Assembly (NCBI GenBank): GCA_030426955.1
Contig: JAUHXS010000010.1
Coordinates: 54,036-118,035 of the forward strand
DNA from: Bacteroidia bacterium
GTDB taxonomy: Bacteria > Bacteroidota > Bacteroidia > Chitinophagales > JAUHXS01
Reading direction: 5' to 3'
Length of the DNA: 64,000 nt
Shown here: positions 20,088 through 33,361 of the stretch, in pieces
How the letters are laid out: every line of letters starts with the position of its first letter
How positions within the stretch are numbered: position 1 is the stretch's first letter
Notes under the pieces: generated by a model
Told to the model about the DNA's origin: nothing
Database searches by the model: none
The model's input: the letters and a program-made list of their open reading frames with translations, nothing else
Translations under genes and position numbers: made by a program

Positions 20088-20127
20088 AAAAGAGGCTTTG
20101 AACATTTGTCCAAAACCTCTTTTTTTG
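20088..20127. terminator. terminator-type hairpin, T-tract on both strands; possibly the displaced terminator of the tRNA used as attachment site
   Basis: AAAAAGAGGCTTTGAACATTTGTCCAAAACCTCTTTTTTT. Confidence 0.55.
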
Positions 20128-20294
20128 GCTCCCCTTAGAGTTATTTTCTCGAACCAATTAGTTGAAGATTTCAAGAAAATCTATGAACTAAAGCCTATTC
20201 TAAAGGTTGTACCCTATCACCCTCCAAAACAATCAGGGTCTCTGAAACGTAGAATTGGTAGTATTTAATATCCCTAGAAGCAATAGAACCAGGT

Positions 20295-20663
20295 ATGAGA
20301 AGAGTAACAAATGCAGGATTAGAGAAAAGAGTCGGAGAAATCATATCAATGATAATCAATGGTGCAGATAGAGGGGATATAGTGCGATATAGTTCTAAAA
20401 ACTGGGGTATTGGAGAAAGACAAATCGATAAATATATAGTAAAAGCCAAGCTCAGAATTCAAAGAGAAATCACTAAGAACATAGAGTTTGACTATGCAAA
20501 AGCAATAATCCGATATGAAACATTGTATAAAAAAGCCATTGAAGTCGAAGATTATAGATTGGCATTATCTATAAATAAAGAACTATCATCAATTCAAGGG
20601 TTGCAGAAGCTAGAAATCAAGCATTCGGGCAATATTGAATTTATATCGAATATTCCCGATTAA
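20295..20663 (+). CDS. putative phage terminase small subunit-like protein
   Basis: HTH-like N-terminus and coil; stop/ATG adjacent to the terminase large subunit gene. Confidence 0.6.
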   Translation: MRRVTNAGLEKRVGEIISMIINGADRGDIVRYSSKNWGIGERQIDKYIVKAKLRIQREITKNIEFDYAKAIIRYETLYKKAIEVEDYRLALSINKELSSIQGLQKLEIKHSGNIEFISNIPD

Positions 20664-21970
20664 TGAAAATTGATTTCTCCAAATACTATCGACCAAAACC
20701 AAAACAAGTCAAAGCCCATTCAAACAGAGCCAAGTACCTTCTGTTTGGAGGGGCAATGGGTGGTGGTAAAAGTTGGTTTTTATGTGGTGAAGCTATTAAG
20801 AATGCCATGATGTTTGAAGGGAATCGGTTAGTCATAGTTAGGAAAGAGCTATCCGTGTTAAGAAGAACAATCCTTATTACTTTTTTTTCTATTTGTCCTC
20901 CTGAAATTATTAAGAGTTATAACCAAAGTTCGTTGGTTATTACTTTCATTAATGGATCGGTTCTTACCTTTTTAGAAGCTAATACTAGTAAAGACCCATT
21001 GTTAAATAAACTAAAAGGGTTAGAGATTGGATGGTTTGGAATAGATGAAGCCAATGAGGTTTCTATTGAGGCTTATCAAATTTTAAAGACCCGATTACGA
21101 TGGACTTTGCCAAATGGGGAACAACCGAGATATGAGGGTAGATTGACGAGCAATCCTGAACAAAGTTGGTTGATTCCGACATTTATTCAATCATCAGACC
21201 CCAATCAGGTTTATATACAATCATTAACAACTGATAATTATGATGAGAATAGCGAATACTATCAGAGTTTAAAGGAGGCATTTGGAGATAATCCTCAGAT
21301 GATGAGGAAGTATCTATTGGGAGATTGGTTTATGATAGATACCATCAATCAGCTGATTCCATCAATGGCTATTGCAAAATGTGAGTCAACCATAACTGAT
21401 GGTGAGGGAATTTCATTAGGAATAGACCCTAGTAGATATGGAGATGACAGAACAGCTTTTATAGTAATAAATGGAGGTAATATTGAGCTAGCAGAAACTT
21501 ATCAAGAAACATCTATTAACCAGATAGTAACTAGAGCTATTGAATTAATTGATTCTTATGATATTCCCAATGACTGTGTTGGAATTGATGGCGTTGGGTT
21601 AGGAACTGGTGTTATTGATAATTTAAAAAGTTTGGGTTATGAGATACAGGAACTGATTGGTGGGGCAAAGCCTATTGACGTCCAAAATGAGGATGCTTTT
21701 CAGCCTTATAATTTACGCTCTCAAATGTATTATCAATTACGCAACGATATAATAGAAGGCTATATTGGTAACCTTAACGATCAAACTTTGAAACTAGAGT
21801 TAGGAGCTATCCAATATGAAATCAATTCGGAAAAGACAGTTAAGGTAATAGGAAAGGAAGCGATTAAAAAAGTGCTAGGTAAGAGTCCCGACTTGGCTGA
21901 TGCGATGTGTTATGCTAATTGGGTGAGGGTTGTTAGGGTACAATATGCTTATGAGTTACCTTTTATTTAG
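20663..21970 (+). CDS. phage terminase large subunit
   Basis: Walker A LFGGAMGGGKSWFL, Walker B WFGIDEANE, C-terminal nuclease signatures GIDPSRYGDDRTAFIV, CVGIDGVGLGTGVID and SPDLADAMCYANW. Confidence 0.92.
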   Translation: MKIDFSKYYRPKPKQVKAHSNRAKYLLFGGAMGGGKSWFLCGEAIKNAMMFEGNRLVIVRKELSVLRRTILITFFSICPPEIIKSYNQSSLVITFINGSVLTFLEANTSKDPLLNKLKGLEIGWFGIDEANEVSIEAYQILKTRLRWTLPNGEQPRYEGRLTSNPEQSWLIPTFIQSSDPNQVYIQSLTTDNYDENSEYYQSLKEAFGDNPQMMRKYLLGDWFMIDTINQLIPSMAIAKCESTITDGEGISLGIDPSRYGDDRTAFIVINGGNIELAETYQETSINQIVTRAIELIDSYDIPNDCVGIDGVGLGTGVIDNLKSLGYEIQELIGGAKPIDVQNEDAFQPYNLRSQMYYQLRNDIIEGYIGNLNDQTLKLELGAIQYEINSEKTVKVIGKEAIKKVLGKSPDLADAMCYANWVRVVRVQYAYELPFI

Positions 21971-22004
21971 ATATTTTGAAATAGCCACTAATATTAAACT
22001 TGTC

Positions 22005-22958
22005 TTACCTAGCTTTTACTTCAATATAGTAGGTCAGAGCAGCTTCCCGATTTATATATACCGTATAATATGATTTACCAATCTTTTCAAACGGGTAATC
22101 GCTGGTAATACGATAATTAGTGGTATATATATCATTATCATTGTTGAAGCGAATCACATCTGAATAATCTTCCTTATCATAAGAAACTTCTATATAACGT
22201 ACTCTTTTCTCACTTCTAAATGACAATTTTAATGTATCTCCAACAAAGAAAGTTAACGTACCTGATTCAGGTGATATAAGAGATATACCTCTTACCAGGG
22301 CGTCAGAATAAATCAATGGGTAGTTTGAAAAGTCTTCCTTACTCCAATTAGTTGATATAAATAGTTTGTTTTCATCTAATGGGTAATGGTTATACTTGAA
22401 TAGCTCTGGGTTACAATAAAAGTAGAATTCGTTAAAATTTTTTTCAAAATCACAATCGCCTGGTGAAGAATATCCTGCTGCCCAAGTAACATCTATTAAG
22501 TGCCATTCATTCTCTGTAAAAACTGCATTCCATGCATGATCTCCCTCCCCCTTGAGTTTTACTCCTATATCCTCAGAGCCATTTCTCGCAAAACCATCAA
22601 TAATTTGACATTTGATATTAATTGAATTACAAAGTTCCTTAAATAAACTTGAGTATCCCGAGCAAACGGCTTTTTCCTGCTTGAGAATTTTGTTGGGATC
22701 AGTGGTTATTAGACTTTCATTTTTTAATGCCTCACAATCGTAAGAAATATGATGTGAAACCCACGTAAAGATTGCTCTAACTTTTACATGCTTTTCATTA
22801 AAGCGATCAGTTAATTGTTTAGCAAGTTTTTCTACGTTTCCCTTGCTGTCTAGTTGTTTTGCAAAGCTGTCTACTTTGTGGTAATTGTAACTTGTGTAAT
22901 CAATGTTTTGTGCAATACAAAGAGAATTAAGAGAAAACAATGCTATAATTATTTTCAT
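22005..22958 (-). CDS. transglutaminase-like domain protein
   Basis: AVCSGYSSLFKELCN (Cys), GEGDHAWNAVFTENEWHLIDVTWA (His/Asp); signal peptide. Confidence 0.88.
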   Translation of the reverse strand: MKIIIALFSLNSLCIAQNIDYTSYNYHKVDSFAKQLDSKGNVEKLAKQLTDRFNEKHVKVRAIFTWVSHHISYDCEALKNESLITTDPNKILKQEKAVCSGYSSLFKELCNSINIKCQIIDGFARNGSEDIGVKLKGEGDHAWNAVFTENEWHLIDVTWAAGYSSPGDCDFEKNFNEFYFYCNPELFKYNHYPLDENKLFISTNWSKEDFSNYPLIYSDALVRGISLISPESGTLTFFVGDTLKLSFRSEKRVRYIEVSYDKEDYSDVIRFNNDNDIYTTNYRITSDYPFEKIGKSYYTVYINREAALTYYIEVKAR

Positions 22959-23905
22959 TTGCTCAAGGCTATATCATTAAATTCTTCAATTAACAACTTT
23001 ATTTTCTGCTCATCTCTCCTATCGTGGTAATAATTAGAATCAGAAAAGATTTTATGGAGAAGCCGCTCTAAGTCTTTATTAGGTTTGTTTTCAACTATTT
23101 TATACATGATATCATGAAGCTCCCATTTTGAGGCTCTAGAAGCACAGTCTACTAGATGCTTGATTAGCTTTTCTCTTTGGTCATTAGGGACAAACTGAAT
23201 GAGCAATAATTCACCGTCTCTTAATTTATCACAGGAGAAAAGTATATTTTGCAACCGTGCTTTCTGTTCACTAGTAATGTATTTGTTATATGCCGTGCTC
23301 TTCGGGTTCTTACTGTAAACGTAATGGCTTATCTGATTAGTAAGCTCAAACGCCCCATCCCACCTAGTCAAGCGACTTGTGCAAAGCTGGACAAGCCATT
23401 CTGTAATAAGCTCATTCCTTCTTTTCTTGTTACTTTGTTTTTGTATGTTAAAATAGGATAAAATACTATTCTTGTAATGATTTAGTTCTTCTTCACTACT
23501 TACTACTTTAGACCCATAAGACAAACCATTCGTGTAAAATAGGTCTGACTCTTTATCTTTATTGATGAAGGCTACTACGGTTTCTCCATCTGGATAACGT
23601 GCTGGTGAAGGACAAATCATATTAGGAGAATATGTGACAATTGCTTGTTGCAACTCCTTCTTTCCTTTTAGCATACTAACGATGTGGAGTTTTGCACGCT
23701 CATCGAAATAACCATTCCAAATTGTATCTCCAGTTAATGAGTCTATTCTAGCAATCGTTAGTTCTCTCTTAATATGCTCTACTTTTGCTATTACAATGTA
23801 ATCACTACTTAATATGAGAGTTTGCAGAGGAACAGGAGTGATTGGATAAGCAAATAGTTCAATCACTAGAAATGATAAGATAAATATAGAAAACAGCCTA
23901 TGCAT
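22955..23905 (-). CDS. hypothetical secreted protein
   Basis: Signal peptide and intact ORF overlapping the transglutaminase gene by 4 nt. Confidence 0.6.
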   Translation of the reverse strand: MHRLFSIFILSFLVIELFAYPITPVPLQTLILSSDYIVIAKVEHIKRELTIARIDSLTGDTIWNGYFDERAKLHIVSMLKGKKELQQAIVTYSPNMICPSPARYPDGETVVAFINKDKESDLFYTNGLSYGSKVVSSEEELNHYKNSILSYFNIQKQSNKKRRNELITEWLVQLCTSRLTRWDGAFELTNQISHYVYSKNPKSTAYNKYITSEQKARLQNILFSCDKLRDGELLLIQFVPNDQREKLIKHLVDCASRASKWELHDIMYKIVENKPNKDLERLLHKIFSDSNYYHDRRDEQKIKLLIEEFNDIALSK

Positions 23906-24123
23906 CCAAAGTTTAAATTATGGTAAAAACTTTTAGTCTCAAATTACATTTTTGGTACGTTGTACGTAAATTTTATTCAAATAGTTGCAACAAGTGTAGG
24001 TTTACAAATCTGCAAACCAGAGAGACCAATCAAACGAAATTTTGTAACTTGTCCCCGTAATAAAAAGATATTATATCGAATAGATAATAAAGACATAAAG
24101 ATTTAATGCGTTAGCGTTATCCT

Positions 24124-24231
24124 AGTTCTTCAAACACCACATTATGAGCTTAACAGGGATAGCCGTTCGTGTTTCGGTATGCGCCGAACACAACGGATTC
24201 TGTTAAGCGGGTTGTGGTGACCTGAAGAACT
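24124..24231. repeat. long multi-segment inverted repeat with single-base bulges on one arm
   Basis: Four nested arm pairs: AGTTCTTC/GAAGAACT, CACCACA/TGTGGTG, CTTAACAG/CTGTTAAG, CCGTTcGTGTTtCGG/CCGAACACAACGG. Confidence 0.85.
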
Positions 24232-24277
24232 GATGATGTTGTCCCTTCGGCGCTGTTGTTTAGATTAAAAACCACAT

Positions 24278-24316
24278 TCATTGGAGGGGGTGAATGACAA
24301 ACCTCAATTCCAATGA
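24278..24316 (+). promoter_or_regulatory. hairpin whose 3' arm contains the start codon of the downstream CDS
   Basis: TCATTGGA (24278-24285) pairs with TCCAATGA (24309-24316); the ATG at 24313 lies in the arm; internal GAGG/CCTC. Confidence 0.6.
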
Positions 24317-25479
24317 GAAAACTATTGATTGTATTATTATTAAGTGGTTGTTTAAGCACTTTTTCACAAACGTATTCAGGACACATATATCATATAGGAG
24401 GGACTTTGCACGCCAGCTATGACTTAGTTGATCGAACACCTCTATTCTCATCTGCTTCAGAATTAATTAAAGACATAAAAAATACTGATTTAGTTGGTAC
24501 TTCCTTTACAGGATCATGGACAACAGGAACAGGCAATAACACAATGTTTGTTAAAGACAATACCATTGACTTTAACACTTTTTCTAGCACACAAATAACG
24601 AATAGTTATAATTCAGGAGTCCCTGCATCAACAGTTACAAACCCTTCTAATGGGGACATATTCATAGCAAAGCTTCGTTCTACTGATAGTTTTGCAGTGA
24701 TCAAAATAACCAATATTGACCCTACTGATAGCACTTGTGCTTGCTCCAATGTAGGGAAGATGACTTTTGACTTTGAAATAGAAGAATCTTGTCCCGAAAA
24801 TATTCCCGAATTACAAGACAACGTTTCAATTTGCTTGGATGATGATGTAATCTTAAACGGCGGTGTTGGATATAGTTCCTATTCCTGGAACACTGGAAGC
24901 AATGCTCAAAGTATTACTGTTAGTGATTCAGGGATGTATGTTTTAACAGTAACTGATGATAATGGTTGTATAACAACAGATACTGCAATTGTAACGGTAT
25001 TATTTCCACCCGATGTTTCTATAGTAAAAACCGATGACTTACTGACTGCCAATGTATCGGAAAGTGTAACAATGTATCAATGGTTATTAAACGGTAATGA
25101 AATTACGGGGGCTAATTTACAATCACACCAAGCAACAGAAAATGGATATTATCAAGTAAAAGTTCAAGGGACAAATAACTGTTGGAATACTTCTGAATCC
25201 CTAGTTGTGGAAGTAGGTAATGAAACCACTATAGCAAGATATAGCAGTGAATCCTCACTTACCATATACCCTAATCCAACAAATGATAAGATTTATTTCA
25301 AGAATTTATCTACCCCAATGAACTATACTTTAATTAACGCTTTAGGGCAAATTGTAAAAGTTGGAATCTTAAACAGCAATGTTTTAGAGCTTGATAACTA
25401 TTCAGCAGGAATATATAAGTTATTGACAATAGATCAAAATAACAAGATTAGATATAGTACCAACCTTATTAAAAACTAA
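24313..25479 (+). CDS. secreted protein with T9SS type A sorting domain
   Basis: Lipoprotein/signal-like N-terminus; C-terminus LTIYPNPTNDKIYFKN...YTLINALGQIVKVG...YSAGIYKLL. Confidence 0.85.
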   Translation: MRKLLIVLLLSGCLSTFSQTYSGHIYHIGGTLHASYDLVDRTPLFSSASELIKDIKNTDLVGTSFTGSWTTGTGNNTMFVKDNTIDFNTFSSTQITNSYNSGVPASTVTNPSNGDIFIAKLRSTDSFAVIKITNIDPTDSTCACSNVGKMTFDFEIEESCPENIPELQDNVSICLDDDVILNGGVGYSSYSWNTGSNAQSITVSDSGMYVLTVTDDNGCITTDTAIVTVLFPPDVSIVKTDDLLTANVSESVTMYQWLLNGNEITGANLQSHQATENGYYQVKVQGTNNCWNTSESLVVEVGNETTIARYSSESSLTIYPNPTNDKIYFKNLSTPMNYTLINALGQIVKVGILNSNVLELDNYSAGIYKLLTIDQNNKIRYSTNLIKN

Positions 25480-25494
25480 TTATCCAAAAAACGA

Positions 25495-25607
25495 ACATGG
25501 CACTTTGCATTGAACGTTTAATAAGTGATTGATTTTTATAATCATACAATAAAAACAAATCATACTTATTAAGGATGCTTTCAAGCATATAACAAATTCC
25601 GCCATGT
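25495..25607. repeat. second long imperfect inverted repeat, downstream of the T9SS gene
   Basis: ACATGGC (25495-25501)/GCCATGT (25601-25607); TTAATAAGT (25518-25526)/ACTTATTAA (25564-25572); GATT/AATC extension; internal ATGCTTTCAAGCAT. Confidence 0.7.
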
Positions 25608-25875
25608 ATATATATGATATTGTTCTTATGAAATTTCGTGGCAAAAACAAATTTGGTGCTTGATTTTAGATCAAGTTAAAACAAAGGTAAGATTGGAAGA
25701 TTGTACTGTTATGGAGATTATTGAGATATAGAGAAGAAAATAATCTGCATGAATAAAGTTTATCATATTTTGCTTCGCAATTTTGTATTTAATATACTTT
25801 AAGATTACTTTTAAGAGTTGTTAGTATATAAATAATCATGTAAAATGATTATCAACAACTCTAGCCAAAGACCTT

Positions 25876-26676
25876 ATGCATAAATTTGAAAAACTTGACT
25901 TCGACTTTTCAGATGAAAAAATAGAAGAATACGCAAGTATATATGTAAAACTAAGGTCTCATCTTAAGAATATAGAAGACATAGATGTAGACCCAAGATT
26001 TAAAAATCTCGGATTCAATACTGATAAAATCAAGAAGATTCTTAAGGCGAATACCATTCCCATTAGGACTAGAGATAAAGGAGTTCATAGGGACATTTAT
26101 AGAAGTGATTTTGGAGAATTATTGTTAACTCTTTTCTTTGACAAAGAATATCACAGTATAGGCGAGTCTTTTATTATTCCAATAAAAAATATTTGGGATA
26201 GAGAACATAATGATCTTCCTGGAAGGGGAATTGACGTGACAGGATATCAGATAGATTCAGGAAAGATTAAGTTGTTACTTGGAGAAGGAAAGGTATCAGG
26301 AGAAAACAATAGTCCTCCTCAGTCTTCTAACGAGATATATAAAGAGCAAAAGAAGTATATAGCTCAAGATCAGACCTATTTAAAAAGAAGATTATCTAAC
26401 TATTCAAAAAAGACAACTGCTGAAGATTCTAAAATCTTAACAATGGTTTTGTTTGCTATTGAAGATAAATTAGACAATGTTTATGAAATAGTTCACGGGT
26501 GTTGCTTAGTTCGAGATATTAATTGCTATAGAGAGGAAGATTTTGGAAAAATGAAGTCTAAACAAAATGAATTTGAAAGCAATGAGATTCATTTTATAAT
26601 TCCTGTGCTAGATAGATCAATCGAAGATACAATAGACGTATTTTATAAAAAAGTTATAGATATAGCTAATGGATAG
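25876..26676 (+). CDS. hamA: DUF1837/HamA-like PD-(D/E)xK nuclease-type protein of a Hachiman-like defence system
   Basis: DFGELLLTLFF, GRGIDVTGYQIDSGKIKLLLGEGKVSGENNSPP (D..ExK signature, E137-x-K139); directly upstream of and overlapping a superfamily 2 helicase. Confidence 0.6.
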   Translation: MHKFEKLDFDFSDEKIEEYASIYVKLRSHLKNIEDIDVDPRFKNLGFNTDKIKKILKANTIPIRTRDKGVHRDIYRSDFGELLLTLFFDKEYHSIGESFIIPIKNIWDREHNDLPGRGIDVTGYQIDSGKIKLLLGEGKVSGENNSPPQSSNEIYKEQKKYIAQDQTYLKRRLSNYSKKTTAEDSKILTMVLFAIEDKLDNVYEIVHGCCLVRDINCYREEDFGKMKSKQNEFESNEIHFIIPVLDRSIEDTIDVFYKKVIDIANG

Positions 26677-29600
26677 TGAGACTTTAAATATTGATAAAAT
26701 TCTTAATCGTCACTCTTCCTTTCAAAAACTTTACGAGGATAGTCAATCCAATTACGTAGAAAAAATACTAACAAATAGCTCCACTGAAACAATTGGATCA
26801 GATAAAGTTCTTAGATATGCTTTTCTACTATATAACAATGCACTAACTAAGGAAATTAAAACAACTCAAAAAGAGGTTGAGTTAGATTTTGAAAAAGTCT
26901 ATTATTTATTGCGTTCACTAGACATTTCAGCCGTTGAAGAGCAATTTGAAACTGTATGGGGTATAGATAACATTGACACAAAGGTTATATACTATTTTCA
27001 TTTAGCTGTAACTGGATTACTTTCAAATAATGATATCAAGGTACAAGTTGACCTAAAAAAGTATAAATATAAATCAAACGATATTACTAATTGGGAAGAC
27101 AAGCTAATAACACAGGTATTTAATGCAGTCATTCTATTGATAAGAAAAGATGGTGTAACTGACATAAAAGATGGACTTTCAATAATAGAAGAGCTAAAAC
27201 AAATTCAAGAAACTTATGAAGATAGCTTTTTAAATGAAGCAGGTGAGAGTAAAGTTGACAAAGCCATTAACCTAATTGGATATTATCATATTTGCAAACT
27301 TCTCATTGAAACTTCTAATTACCTATTGCAAGGATATGGATATGGGGAAAACTTAATAAATATTATTACCCGCCATACAAAATATGCTATTGAGTCACTG
27401 ATTAATAAACCTAGAATACAAAATTGCACCAACGTTATAAGCCAAATCTGTAAAAAGCTTCATAGTAACTGTATATGGACTCAAACAAGCTCCCTTAGTA
27501 CTAATATAAAAGCTCTTTGTAAGACATTAAATGAAAAAAACATCATTGATCTTTTACCTTCACAACAAGAAGCAATAAAAAATAATTTTTTGGATCCTGC
27601 TTCAAGTGCGACAATTCTTCAGATGCCCACAAGTGCTGGAAAAACATTACTTGCTGAGTTTGCAATCTTGCAAACAAAAGCATTGATTCCTGATGCTAAA
27701 ATAGTTTATCTAGTTCCTACTAGAGCCTTGATTAATCAAGTTATGGGTGATCTTAGAGAAGATTTTGAGGGACTAAATATAGACATTGAAAAATGTAGTG
27801 GTGCAATAGAACTTGACCCTTCTGAAGATTTATTCCTCAACTCTAAAATAGATATTCTAATTGCTACTCCAGAGAAGTTTGACCTCTTAATAAGAAAGGA
27901 TCACCCTGTAACGCATGATATTTCTTTAGTTATTGTAGACGAGGCGCATAATATTAGCAATGGGCAAAGAGGAGCCCGACTAGAGCTCCTGCTTTCGATT
28001 TTAAAAAGAGAGAAACCTAATTTAAGATACTTATTATTAACACCATTCATTCCCCAAAAAGAAAACGGTGAAATTATCAGAGATTGGCTTTCTTCTGGCA
28101 AAACTTCAATTCCTCCAATTCTAGTTGATTGGAAACCCTCTGATAAGATTTTTCTCGGCATTAAGGAACATAAAAACGATTTTAAAGCCGAAATTCTTCC
28201 AAGTTTATATGACTGGACAATAAAGGAGACCGATATTAAGTTGGGGAAACCCGAAATACATTCCACTGCAAAAAAAGAGAGGCTATTTGAATTTAATGCC
28301 AAACACTTTTCTAATGAAGATAAGAGTATATTATTTCTATGTTGGGGGAAAGGAACAGCAGATAAGAAAGCTAATCTTCTTTATGAAAATTTGGATGTAG
28401 AAATAAAGAAGTCTGAAAAGGTTAACTTAGTTTCCCGCTATATCGAGGAAGTTGTTGGAGAACCCACTACGATTTCAAAGGTCTTAAAAAAAGGAATTGC
28501 GGTACATCATGCTGGGTTGACAGATGAAATTAAATTACTTGTTGAGCATTTAATTAAACAAAGAGAAGTAAGTCATATTTGTGCTACAACAACAGTTGCT
28601 CAAGGTATAAATTTCCCAATATCAACTATACATTTTGATGATTTCAGAAAAGGTTCTTCAGGAAATTTATCCATAAGTGAATTCAGAAATATTGTCGGCA
28701 GAGCTGGTAGAACATTAGTAGACAATGTAGGAAAAATCCTATTTCCATTTAACTCTAAGACAAATAAAGATAAAGCAAGAGAGTACCTTAAATCTGATTC
28801 AGAGGAAATCACAAGCGCACTACTAGATTTAATTTTGAAGTCCGAAAAAATAGTTAATGCCTTTTCTAATTCAGAAAACAATGAGGAACGGAAGGAATTA
28901 TTTAAAGACAATCAAGCATTATCCTCTCTAATACAATACATTATCCATTTACTCAATATAAGTAATGATGATACATTTGTTGATGAAATTGAAGATTTAT
29001 TCAAAGATAGTTTAGGTTATCATATTGTAGATGATGAAAAGAAAGCAAGGTTTATCCAAATATGTCAGACACTATATTTCAGCTTAAAAGAAAATAGTTC
29101 AAGTGGAATTTTATCTTATGCCGATAAGACTGGCTTTAGTGTTCCATCAGTTCTTGAGATAATGAAAGCAAAAAGCTCAAATCCTGAAATTCTTAATAAA
29201 GAAAATTGGGACCCAAATAATTTGTTTAGTCAGCAAGACTATTCCTCAATGACCAACAAGGTAAGCATAATAGCGCACCTCAGGGAGGTTGGCTTAGGAA
29301 CAGATTCTACATATTCAGCATTTAACCCTGAAACTGTTTCAAAAATATTAGTTGATTGGGTTAATGGAGATAATATATCTATCTTATCTAAGATTCATCC
29401 GTCTTTTAGAAATAAAGGTGAAGATAGAATCAATGACTTTGTAAGTTATTTAACTAGTGCAACGTTTAAGTCGTCATGGGGCTTAAGCGCATTAGAGGGC
29501 ATTGTTAATGCTAAAGGAGACAACATTCAAGATACAAATTCTTACATCCCATCTATGGTTTACTATGGAGTAAGAACTAAGGAGGCTATTGCACTAAGAA

Positions 29601-29794
29601 TGCTTGGTGTTCCTAGAACCTTGTCTGACAATATAGCAACGAATTTGTTTAAGGAAAAGAAGCCAAGATCCTACAACGAAATAAGAAAGTCAATTAATAA
29701 TTTAAGTTTTAATGCTTGGGAGGACTTTAAACCAAATGGGTCTAAATTAAATGGAGACGAATGGAAAGAAATTACTAATATTCTATTGCGTTAA
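26669..29794 (+). CDS. hamB: HamB-like superfamily 2 (Ski2-like) DEAD/DEAH helicase
   Basis: QMPTSAGKTLLAEFAI (motif I), VPTRALINQV (Ia), VIVDEAHNI (II), HHAGLTDEIK..ATTTVAQGINFP..NIVGRAGR (IV-VI). Overlaps the nuclease-type gene by 8 nt. Confidence 0.65.
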   Translation: MDSETLNIDKILNRHSSFQKLYEDSQSNYVEKILTNSSTETIGSDKVLRYAFLLYNNALTKEIKTTQKEVELDFEKVYYLLRSLDISAVEEQFETVWGIDNIDTKVIYYFHLAVTGLLSNNDIKVQVDLKKYKYKSNDITNWEDKLITQVFNAVILLIRKDGVTDIKDGLSIIEELKQIQETYEDSFLNEAGESKVDKAINLIGYYHICKLLIETSNYLLQGYGYGENLINIITRHTKYAIESLINKPRIQNCTNVISQICKKLHSNCIWTQTSSLSTNIKALCKTLNEKNIIDLLPSQQEAIKNNFLDPASSATILQMPTSAGKTLLAEFAILQTKALIPDAKIVYLVPTRALINQVMGDLREDFEGLNIDIEKCSGAIELDPSEDLFLNSKIDILIATPEKFDLLIRKDHPVTHDISLVIVDEAHNISNGQRGARLELLLSILKREKPNLRYLLLTPFIPQKENGEIIRDWLSSGKTSIPPILVDWKPSDKIFLGIKEHKNDFKAEILPSLYDWTIKETDIKLGKPEIHSTAKKERLFEFNAKHFSNEDKSILFLCWGKGTADKKANLLYENLDVEIKKSEKVNLVSRYIEEVVGEPTTISKVLKKGIAVHHAGLTDEIKLLVEHLIKQREVSHICATTTVAQGINFPISTIHFDDFRKGSSGNLSISEFRNIVGRAGRTLVDNVGKILFPFNSKTNKDKAREYLKSDSEEITSALLDLILKSEKIVNAFSNSENNEERKELFKDNQALSSLIQYIIHLLNISNDDTFVDEIEDLFKDSLGYHIVDDEKKARFIQICQTLYFSLKENSSSGILSYADKTGFSVPSVLEIMKAKSSNPEILNKENWDPNNLFSQQDYSSMTNKVSIIAHLREVGLGTDSTYSAFNPETVSKILVDWVNGDNISILSKIHPSFRNKGEDRINDFVSYLTSATFKSSWGLSALEGIVNAKGDNIQDTNSYIPSMVYYGVRTKEAIALRMLGVPRTLSDNIATNLFKEKKPRSYNEIRKSINNLSFNAWEDFKPNGSKLNGDEWKEITNILLR

Positions 29795-30635
29795 TAAATA
29801 ATTCGTCTCTATTATAGTCGTTTAATAAATCGTCATTAATTTCAATTAAAGGATCATACCAATCAGCCTTTTTATTAGCCCATTCAACCCAATCTTTTAT
29901 GTCTTGGCATTGTGAAGTATGCTCTGCCTTTGTCTTAACGTATTCTCTTAATATTTTTGTTTGATGCCATCTGTTTGCTCCATTGAGAAGTTCCTTGAAT
30001 TTATATAGCTCATCTTCCTTCATTTTTTGTGCTTTTAATTCTGCTTCTCGCTCCCTTTCACGTTTTTCATGGTAGGCTCTGATCTCAGCTCTTTCTATTT
30101 TTTTTCTTTGACTTTCGACTTCAAGCCAAGCGACTATTTTAGCAAGCTTATCTTCTAGAGGTATAGTGGTATCTGAAAATTCTCTTACCCAATATGAAGT
30201 CCCAATCTTGAAGTACAAAACATTTGATGGGCTGTACTGTGCTTGTGGATAGTACTTCCCTTGAACCATAGTTCTATTCCTTCTTTCTTTAAGAGCCATT
30301 GGAATCTCTTCTTCAGCTACGATAAGATATGTAAGGTTATTTTTGAATGTTATTTGATGTCCCCTTGCTTTTAATAGTTTAACAAAAGCATCTAACAGCT
30401 TAGTTGCCCTGCCTACATTTTTGGGTGTCACAAGAACATCAATAATACTAGCAGAACTACTTATCATGCCTTCATACCTGAAAGAAGATTTTTTTAGTTT
30501 TAAATCAACTTTAAGTTCTCTTATTAATTTATCAGGATTAGTGAGTCTTGATACTCCTTTAATTATAGAACTATGAAGTTCTGTGATTTCTGAAGTTAGT
30601 TCGTTTACTTTTTTCTGAAACTGCTTATTGTCCAT
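29775..30635 (-). CDS. hypothetical protein with long charged coiled coil; related to accessory-region proteins that usually carry an N-terminal HTH
   Basis: Start placed at MDNKQFQ; body ...RATKLLDAFVKLLKARGHQITF...ALKERRNRT...W...R.REREREAELKAQK. Convergent 20-bp overlap with the helicase gene. Confidence 0.6.
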   Translation of the reverse strand: MDNKQFQKKVNELTSEITELHSSIIKGVSRLTNPDKLIRELKVDLKLKKSSFRYEGMISSSASIIDVLVTPKNVGRATKLLDAFVKLLKARGHQITFKNNLTYLIVAEEEIPMALKERRNRTMVQGKYYPQAQYSPSNVLYFKIGTSYWVREFSDTTIPLEDKLAKIVAWLEVESQRKKIERAEIRAYHEKREREREAELKAQKMKEDELYKFKELLNGANRWHQTKILREYVKTKAEHTSQCQDIKDWVEWANKKADWYDPLIEINDDLLNDYNRDELFINAIEY

Positions 30636-30647
30636 ATTGTATATTTT

Positions 30648-30671
30648 AAAACTTACCAATTGGTAAGTTTT
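30648..30671. promoter_or_regulatory. perfect 24-bp palindrome, probable operator in a divergent intergenic region
   Basis: AAAACTTACCAATTGGTAAGTTTT, perfect dyad centred at 30659/30660. Confidence 0.8.
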
Positions 30672-30697
30672 TTGTATATTAGTTTAAATTTGACACA

Positions 30698-31501
30698 TTG
30701 ACCAAGCAAGAAAAGAAATATTTTAGAGTAACAAAGCAAAAAGGATTTGAATCTAATTTCAAGACATATCACATGGATCCAAGTTATGACCACTTTAGGA
30801 TCTTATTTAATAAAAAAAATTACAGAATAGAACCTACTGTAATATCTTACAGGTTAATAAACCATTGGGATTCGAAAGGCTTGATTCCAGAAAGTTGTCG
30901 AGCTAAAAGTCAAAAGTGGAGGTATTATAGTTTGGTTGATTTAGTATGGATTGCAATAATTAAGGGGCTTAGAGAATTTGAGGTGGGTCTGCCGTTTATT
31001 CAGAAAGTCAAATCCAGCTTGAAAGTACAATTTGGAATAAGCGAATTTAGTGAGTTGGAGTTTTACATATCGTGGGCGGCTGTGCAAAAAGTCCCGTGTG
31101 AAATCTTAATATTTAGAGACGGATCAGCAGAGATAGCAACAATTTATGAAATAGAGGATTCAAAGGAAAAAATTGGTCTTGAAGCCCATTTCAATTTCAG
31201 TTTAAACATGATACTACAAAGCGTTATGCCTGAGTTAGACTTACAGCCCAATTATAGTTTATGGGTGAAATTGGAGCAAGATGTTGCCAAAATTGTGAAT
31301 TACATTAAAACAGGCAATTATAAAGAGATTAGCGTTGAAATGAAGAATGGGAAGGTCGAAACCATCTCTACAACAGAATTACATGACCCTAAGTCACAAA
31401 TACATGGACTACTTAGAAGAGGGGAATATCAAGAAGTTTCACACATCCAGAAAAATGGAAAAGTACTTCATATTAAAAGAAAAAAAACAGAGCGATTATG
31501 A
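30698..31501 (+). CDS. MerR-like HTH regulator (TTG start in the ORF track; true start uncertain)
   Basis: VISYRLINHWDSKGLIPESCRAKSQKWRYYSLVDLVWIAIIKGLREFEVGLPFIQKVKSSL is a MerR-type wHTH pattern; C-terminal duplicated YKEISVEMKNGKVETI / YQEVSHIQKNGKVLHI. Confidence 0.65.
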   Translation: MTKQEKKYFRVTKQKGFESNFKTYHMDPSYDHFRILFNKKNYRIEPTVISYRLINHWDSKGLIPESCRAKSQKWRYYSLVDLVWIAIIKGLREFEVGLPFIQKVKSSLKVQFGISEFSELEFYISWAAVQKVPCEILIFRDGSAEIATIYEIEDSKEKIGLEAHFNFSLNMILQSVMPELDLQPNYSLWVKLEQDVAKIVNYIKTGNYKEISVEMKNGKVETISTTELHDPKSQIHGLLRRGEYQEVSHIQKNGKVLHIKRKKTERL

Positions 31502-31582
31502 TTAAGATCCTTGAAAAAAGGACACATTGCCAACGGAACAGTGACTTAGGAAGACTGAGCGCTATTCGCACCATGATGCATT

Positions 31583-31738
31583 ATGCTATCATTACAAAAA
31601 TGCAGGCAAGTCCTTAACTCGAAAAACAAAAATTATACTGACGAAGAAATAAAAAAGATTAGAGACTTTCTATATAAATTGGGTAATATAAACTTAAAGC
31701 AATTCAAACAAAAATCAACCCACAACTTTAAGTTTTAG
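31583..31738 (+). CDS. small ORF (51 aa) upstream of the recombinase, not in the ORF track
   Basis: MLSLQKCRQVLNSKNKNYTDEEIKKIRDFLYKLGNINLKQFKQKSTHNFKF; 39 bp upstream of the recombinase start. Confidence 0.55.
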   Translation: MLSLQKCRQVLNSKNKNYTDEEIKKIRDFLYKLGNINLKQFKQKSTHNFKF

Positions 31739-31777
31739 CTTATTACTTTAGAATAAGAATAACAAATAAAAAGGCTT

Positions 31778-33322
31778 ATGGAAGGAGTTGTTATATATAC
31801 TCGAGTAAGTACTGATGAGCAGGCTAAGCATGGCTTTAGCCTTGCTCATCAAAGAACAGTACTTAAAAAGTATTGTGAAATCATGAATTTAAATATTTTG
31901 GAACATTTTGAAGATGATGGATATCCCGCGAAAGATTTTAATCGTCCAGGATTTATTAAGTTAATGCAATATTGCAAAGAAAATAAATCTACCCTTTCAA
32001 AAGTTCTTTTCACCAATTGGAGTCGATTTTCAAGAAACCAAATTGCGGGTTTAATGATGGTAGAGGAAATTTTATCTCTTGGCATTGATCCCAATGCTGT
32101 TGAGCAACCAATTGACCACTCTATTCCAGAGCAAAAGTATCTATTAAGCATCTACTTAACTGGTCCAGAAGTAGACAACGATATAAGAGCACGAAATACA
32201 ATTAACGGTATGGAGCGTTCAAAAAGGGAGGGAAACTATGTAGCAAAACCACCAAAAGGATATAACCCACGAAAAAGAAGTTTAGACGATGTCATTGAAC
32301 CAAATGAAGATGCTCACTTTATTCTAAAAGCTTTTGAGGATGTAGCAAATAACGATTCTCCAATCGATCACGTAAGGCAATCGCTCAATAAGAAGGGCTT
32401 TAATTGTTCGAAAAATCATTTCATAAACAATATTCTTAAAAATCCAGTGTACATTGGCAAAATTGCTATACGAGACAAAGATGGAGTGTTAGAACTTATA
32501 GAAGGAAAACACAAAGCTATTGTTTCTGAAGAATTGTTTGAACGCGTGCAGAACATTTTAAATAACAAACAAAGAAGGGTTCAAAAAACAAAATCTATTG
32601 ACCCAGATCTTGTTCTTAGAGGTTTCTTACTTTGCAACAATTGTGGGAAAAAGTTAACTGGAAGCAAATCAGGAGGCAATGGGGGCAAGTACGCATACCA
32701 TCACTGTGCAACACCCTGCACTACAAGATTTAGAGCAGATAAAGCAAATGAAGATTTTATTTCATATTTAAATTCTCTTAACATTAGCGAGGAGGTAGCT
32801 TCTTTGTATTCCCATGTATTAACAGATATATATAATAGTGAGATAGAAAATCAAGCGGACAAAGTAAAAAAAATAGAAGAGGAAATTTACAAATGCAAAT
32901 CTTTTATAGAAGAAGCCCAATCTAAACTTTTACAAAACACTCTAAGGGATGATGAATATAAATCTCTTAGAGATAAATACGAGGGTAAAAATAAGAAATT
33001 AGAATCTGAACTAGCTCGTATTAAAGAAGGGGATTCTAGTTTTTTAAACTATTTAGATTTCGGATTATTACTATTTCAAGATATAGGCAAATACTATCAA
33101 GAATCAAGTATTGAAGCAAAACAAGCATTAATTGGTTCGATGTTCCCAAATAATTTAGAATATTTCAAAAACAATTATCGAACCAGTTCAATGAATAAAG
33201 CACTTGAGCTAATAGTCAATAATAATGCGCTTACAGACAAAATAGAAAGAGGACTTGAAGTCGAAAAAAACTCCAAGTCCTCTAAAGCTCCCCCTCCTGG
33301 GCTCGAACCAGGGACCTATTGA
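31778..33322 (+). CDS. large serine recombinase (resolvase domain, recombinase domain, zinc ribbon)
   Basis: VVIYTRVSTDEQAKHGFSLAHQ; LRGFLLCNNCGKKLTGSKSGGNGGKYAYHHC; C-terminal coiled coil. Confidence 0.93.
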   Translation: MEGVVIYTRVSTDEQAKHGFSLAHQRTVLKKYCEIMNLNILEHFEDDGYPAKDFNRPGFIKLMQYCKENKSTLSKVLFTNWSRFSRNQIAGLMMVEEILSLGIDPNAVEQPIDHSIPEQKYLLSIYLTGPEVDNDIRARNTINGMERSKREGNYVAKPPKGYNPRKRSLDDVIEPNEDAHFILKAFEDVANNDSPIDHVRQSLNKKGFNCSKNHFINNILKNPVYIGKIAIRDKDGVLELIEGKHKAIVSEELFERVQNILNNKQRRVQKTKSIDPDLVLRGFLLCNNCGKKLTGSKSGGNGGKYAYHHCATPCTTRFRADKANEDFISYLNSLNISEEVASLYSHVLTDIYNSEIENQADKVKKIEEEIYKCKSFIEEAQSKLLQNTLRDDEYKSLRDKYEGKNKKLESELARIKEGDSSFLNYLDFGLLLFQDIGKYYQESSIEAKQALIGSMFPNNLEYFKNNYRTSSMNKALELIVNNNALTDKIERGLEVEKNSKSSKAPPPGLEPGTY

Positions 33323-33361
33323 TTAACAGTCAACCGCTCTAACCAACTGAGCTAAGGAGGA
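33288..33361 (-). tRNA. tRNA-Asn (GTT anticodon)
   Basis: Reverse complement TCCTCCTTAGCTCAGTTGGTTAGAGCGGTTGACTGTTAATCAATAGGTCCCTGGTTCGAGCCCAGGAGGGGGAG folds as a cloverleaf: acceptor TCCTCCT/AGGGGGA, T-arm CCTGG-TTCGAGC-CCAGG, anticodon GTT. Confidence 0.95.

Follow-up and report, generated by a model that had tools for sequence, protein, structure and literature searches.

Results

Gene content of the tRNA-Asn locus

The window, by which we mean the whole stretch of 64,000 nucleotides that was analysed, carries a tRNA-Asn(GTT) gene on the minus strand (33287..33361) into which the end of an integrase gene on the plus strand (31778..33322) runs. The latter encodes a large serine integrase of 514 amino acids whose final residues (PPPGLEPGTY) are antisense to the tRNA; the initial annotation had described this arrangement, and both genes are present. 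A resolvase catalytic domain with its serine, a recombinase domain and a zinc ribbon identify the protein as a large serine integrase; the Pfam zinc-ribbon model scores 22.0, below its cut-off of 25.3, and the integrase profile matches structures of the A118 integrase. The RVSTDEQ motif and four cysteines are invariant, and the catalytic and zinc residues are intact. The integrase gene is adjoined by that of a MerR-like HTH protein (30698..31501, plus strand), a candidate directionality factor, and a MerR-like gene beside the integrase recurs in several related elements.

The remaining genes of the island are cargo or relate to DNA packaging. A small ORF (20295..20663, plus strand) that matches phrog_34910, and by its position probably encodes a small terminase, precedes the gene of the terminase large subunit, terL (20663..21970, plus strand); together (20295-21970) they directly follow the detached integrase tail described below. 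They are succeeded by a transglutaminase-like protein (22005..22958, minus strand), a hypothetical protein of no family (22955..23905, minus strand), a protein with a secretion C-terminal sorting domain (24313..25479, plus strand), a defence pair, and a second hypothetical protein of no family (29775..30659, minus strand). The defence pair consists of a PDC-M23A/HamA-like protein (25876..26676, plus strand) and a PDC-M23B/HamB-like DEAD-box helicase (26669..29794, plus strand). This pairing resembles Hachiman and PDC-M23 as defined in PADLOC, but the best models are those of the candidate system PDC-M23 and the Hachiman models fit less well, above all HamA (HamA 18 bits, HamB 222 bits, PDC-M23B 649 bits). 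Sister elements bear other cargo, such as a type I restriction-modification system with GmrSD or an LRR-Roc-TIR protein.

Two hairpins with a T-run lie on the minus strand. One, at the left junction (20088..20127), is present where the initial annotation had placed it and is probably the original terminator of tRNA-Asn, since the tRNA-Asn genes of relatives show a hairpin and T-run directly after them. The other (33248..33283; 15-bp stem, -22.7 kcal/mol, z -7.9) lies inside the integrase coding sequence, in its last stretch before the att core, and would be the replacement terminator of the tRNA. Such an in-gene hairpin with a T-run on the tRNA strand was found at 95 of 100 loci, as compared with 18% in shuffled sequences, and its folding z averaged -5.5. 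This suggests a double use of the stretch, as protein-coding sequence on one strand and probably as a terminator of tRNA transcription on the other.

Element ends and reconstruction of attP

Two blocks occur at both ends of the island, as had been noted from the start: CTCGAACCA (20148-20156 and 33302-33310) and GCTCCCC (20128-20134 and 33287-33293), separated by 13 nt on the left and 8 nt on the right. The proposal of an integrative element of about 13 kb at the tRNA-Asn 3' end is borne out by the common core, by the joined integrase ORF and by a lower GC content, the comparison with the flanks that the initial annotation had called for giving 31-35% inside and 36-37% outside. Its left boundary at 20148 needs to be moved. 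The boundaries are set by the core that is common to the tRNA 3' end, as in tRNA-targeted elements: the right copy of GCTCCCC (33287..33293) is the tRNA-Asn 3' end and the left copy (20128..20134) gives the left end, so that the element spans 20128..33293, with 13,159 bp from core to equivalent core.

When the ends are joined at GCTCCCC, the resulting attP contains CTCTAA-AGCTCCCC-TTAGAG, a 6-bp inverted repeat without mismatches. The crossover site most likely lies within GCTCCCC, and because the repeat flanks the core we infer TC (20130-20131 in the left core) as the central, crossover dinucleotide. The sequence predicted for the circle junction is AAGTCCTCTAAAGCTCCCCTTAGAGTTATTTTCTCGAACC and that for the empty tRNA-Asn site is CCTCTTTTTTTGGCTCCCCCTCCTGGGCTCGAACC. 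In the reconstructed attB, tRNA-Asn is followed directly by the hairpin and T-run, a layout that resembles island-free tRNA-Asn loci in other families of the same order, whose genomes are the nearest to this draft genome; the suggestion that the old terminator of the tRNA was left at the far end fits this layout.

Once the ends are joined, the integrase ORF runs past the junction to 20268, and a 503-residue body is continued in frame by a 46-residue C-terminal tail (SNQLVEDFKKIYEL...; 20132..20268, plus strand, stop included) to give a protein of 549 amino acids. The reconstruction thereby places attP within the integrase gene itself, a point that the initial annotation had missed. The 503-residue body retains the catalytic, recombinase, zinc and coiled-coil regions, and the enzyme is presumably catalytically active on attP x attB.

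A 5-bp offset between attP and attB

The attP copy of CTCGAACCA (20148..20156, plus strand) is a putative zinc-domain site whose distance from the core exceeds that in attB by 5 bp (PMC3783163), and the attB copy (33302..33310, plus strand) is the antisense of the tRNA T-loop. The same geometry was found in 15 of 15 att pairs, which were reconstructed for 14 related elements: counted from the start of the core, AAC lies at 24 nt in attP and at 19 nt in attB. Right-arm identity reaches 0.56 and peaks only at a shift of +5, while 2000 shuffles gave a maximum of 0.37; together with the agreement of all 15 pairs, this indicates more than chance. The choice of att core demanded an in-frame match and thus forced the shift to 2 modulo 3, yet shifts of 2 or 8 were equally allowed and 5 alone was observed. 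The 9-bp block, named as the weakness of the initial annotation, is indeed weak when taken alone; it is its recurring geometry that goes beyond coincidence. In the left arm no clear 5-bp shift appeared across the family among the att pairs compared; the left arms of the window, GGAGTTTTT and AGAGGTTTT, look compatible by eye and are T-rich.

In the A118 integrase, the zinc-domain motif occupies positions 16-24 of attP and 11-19 of attB, and is thus displaced by 5 bp between the two sites (PMC3783163). The spacing of 13 nt against 8 nt appears to be this zinc-domain offset of large serine integrases and not the product of tRNA decay, and the second copy of TGGTTCGAG would be the attP arm motif, situated within the 3' portion of the integrase gene that has become detached. 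A shift of 5 alters the reading frame, so that the TCGAAC motif reads SN in attP and GFEP-like in the tRNA. The identity of the attB motif with the tRNA T-loop would also explain the use of many tRNA isotypes by this family.

Conservation of the tail in related elements

The 46-residue tail was used to seed a jackhmmer search of all stop-to-stop segments in 36 related regions and the window (1.15 Mb). Homologs were found 5-42 kb upstream of the integrases, and all matches with E < 0.01 were on the integrase-sense strand, none being antisense; the three weaker matches G395, G174 and G091 were accepted solely for their position directly after an in-frame core. Each tail adjoins a core matching the tRNA 3' end (GCTCCCC, GTGACCCC, GTGCCC, GTGAACCGG) and is in frame with its own integrase. 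Tails measure 21-46 residues and follow a pattern like SN-x-[FL]-x-x-D-[LF]-K-x-[IL]-x-x-L, in which SN is partly fixed by the TCGAAC DNA motif. Identity by codon position (0.47/0.53/0.30) argues for selection on the tail as protein, and its frame stays open across elements that are 31-40% identical. In about 20 of the 36 related elements the tail was not found, some of these regions being only 20 kb long or ending at a contig end. In the IMG/VR contigs L183 and L186, the tRNA-like core that ends the integrase is longer and a tail could not be recognised; their subfamily may have lost the tail. At another locus (L040 / G331:C1, composite positions 27987-31753), three serial tail copies stand left of one integrase, one of them preceded by a 41-bp copy of the right end of the element, an arrangement that we read as insertion at one tRNA-Asn more than once or in tandem.

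Four relatives (G047, G361 and the more divergent L123 and L169) have an unsplit integrase gene, the tail being fused to the body, and no tRNA was found where their integrase gene ends. The AlphaFold model of the unsplit L123 integrase has a pLDDT of 81 overall and of 35-55 in the tail, and carries no information on tail packing. The integrase body of G361 shares 98% DNA identity with that of G377 and 87% with those of G101 and G323. The similarity ends at the core, beyond which the tail stands in G361, tRNA-Arg in G377, and tRNA-Lys in G101 and G323. It is also worth mentioning that G101, G323, G361:C5 (L290) and G377:C68 (L291) possess another serine recombinase gene, related to the first and immediately upstream of it, whose conserved C-terminus differs (ESVHLHRKHAV...LRNRM).

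Distribution and tRNA targets

Relatives of the integrase occur in 74 of 399 genomes of the order at E < 1e-30, more distant ones included, and hosts among the relatives include Flavobacterium, Chryseobacterium, Chitinophaga and Niastella. The integrase ends inside a tRNA of one of many isotypes in 88 of the 119 relatives examined. The tRNAs used by the family are those for Asn, Arg, Leu, Lys, Met, Glu, Pro, Gln, Val, Ala, Phe and His. Related islands across the phylum Bacteroidota share the layout with attP in the integrase gene. The GFEP-like frame is common across relatives and not universal: in a minority, including L110, L279 and L043, the tRNA is entered in another reading frame (SPGRNRT, RARTSDP). 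As the sole query, the window integrase retrieved no relatives in a scan of viral_contigs; the family alignment retrieved distant and some close ones, and among INPHARED phages relatives were found only at about 28% identity or less.

Discussion

Our analyses lead us to propose, with high confidence, that a large serine integrase, which carries attP in its own gene and has its C-terminus exchanged on integration, placed a 13.2 kb island at the tRNA-Asn 3' end. The target, attB, would be the tRNA 3' end, with the core at the acceptor end and the near-universal T-loop TTCGAAC as one arm motif; in attP the T-loop motif would lie 5 bp further out, as zinc-domain binding expects. The circular form would encode the 549-residue integrase with its C-terminal tail. 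To judge from the sequences, recombination would then leave the tail at the far end and fuse the 503-residue body to antisense-tRNA residues. Integration would likewise part the tRNA from its own terminator, a new one being provided by the integrase coding stretch. It is tempting to suppose that the tail favours integration and that its loss makes insertion self-limiting, while the integrated form would be fit for excision together with a directionality factor, a role that the neighbouring MerR-like protein may fill, and excision would restore the tail.

The same features can be read in other ways. The initial annotation had taken the left block for the 3' end of a tRNA that was displaced when the island inserted and has since decayed, with the crossover in TGGTTCGAG and the left end at 20148, and the 9 bp of CTCGAACCA are indeed the longest exact common block; this block is nevertheless wrongly spaced and out of the integrase frame, the 5-bp offset returns in all 15 pairs with spacers that are intact and unrelated, and the motif belongs to the integrase ORF in unsplit genes, so that we regard decay as very improbable. 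Hardly more credible is the view that there is no mobile element at all, the integrase being a degraded relic or an ancestral chromosomal gene and the joined ORF a coincidence. Open frames of 46 codons may arise by chance and the comparison genomes come from other families, none being of the same species, yet such a coincidence would have to accommodate intact catalytic and zinc residues, tail homologs in many elements, the near-identical bodies of G361 and G377 as a before/after pair, and the GC shift at the element.

What the exchange of the tail does is a more delicate matter. Integration may act as a switch on the recombinase, the tailed enzyme of the circle integrating and the tRNA-ended enzyme being integration-impaired or biased towards excision; we advance this tentatively, conservation being the one basis for such a role and AlphaFold confidence being low in the tail. 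It is also quite conceivable, if short of probable, that the structure is as described and the swap has no functional consequence, att and int being linked for joint travel and the tail being a tolerated extension. The variable length of the tail (21-46 residues), the apparently tail-less subfamilies and the retention of all recognised domains in the body speak for a tolerated extension; conservation at the protein level beyond the DNA motif and a frame kept open between such divergent elements speak against it. Another question, compatible with the attP-in-integrase explanation as it concerns transfer and not integration, is whether the island, instead of being a self-contained defence island, is a phage satellite or what is left of a prophage. 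The terminase genes near the left end possibly represent a satellite packaging function or a remnant, and packaging into helper particles would follow from the pair; the element has no capsid, portal or tail genes, however, and the sister elements examined carry different cargo with no terminase homolog, so that we hold this rather unlikely.

Like the large serine integrases of the A118, phiC31 and Bxb1 type, the enzyme combines resolvase and recombinase domains with zinc-ribbon cysteines and a coiled coil, and its sites have their 5-bp zinc-domain offset (PMC3783163), here in the right arm. It would differ from them in having attP within the integrase ORF, in taking the T-arm and acceptor end of nearly any tRNA as attB, and in changing its C-terminus on integration. 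An att site within an integrase gene that is split by integration is a property of the archaeal "suicidal" tyrosine integrases (SSV1, pTN3, pT26-2), which are described as confined to archaea and are broken into two inactive parts (PMC8371274), whereas the present enzyme is a bacterial serine integrase that keeps all core domains and exchanges only its tail. In the integration-dependent immunity of mycobacteriophage BPs, attP likewise lies inside a coding gene and integration alters a protein so as to act as a switch; there the protein is the repressor (PMC4557955), here it would be the integrase. The islands catalogued by Islander (PMC4383910) are also inserted at tRNA genes that are left intact, but they have tyrosine integrases and a displaced tRNA fragment, in contrast to the serine integrase and short duplicated core seen here. 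A tRNA-Arg island of Riemerella was considered as experimental support and rejected, its integrase being of the tyrosine type (PMC6764341). In the open-access literature, a scope without most subscription journals, we found no paper that places attP within the ORF of a serine integrase, and novelty is thus unproven.

In practice, the att sites of such elements in Bacteroidota could be located by a simple rule, with the core at the tRNA acceptor end and the T-loop AAC at +19 in attB and +24 in attP, which should be useful for mapping element ends and choosing integration tools. Database integrases of this family that end in GFEP-like residues would be integrated forms, and cloning them probably takes the wrong C-terminus. 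If our interpretation is correct, directionality would be written into the position of attP, and an attB based on the T-loop would let the family move between tRNA isotypes. Such a milder version of suicidal integration, in a widespread family of bacterial serine integrases, would offer a new and directly testable route to the control of directionality.
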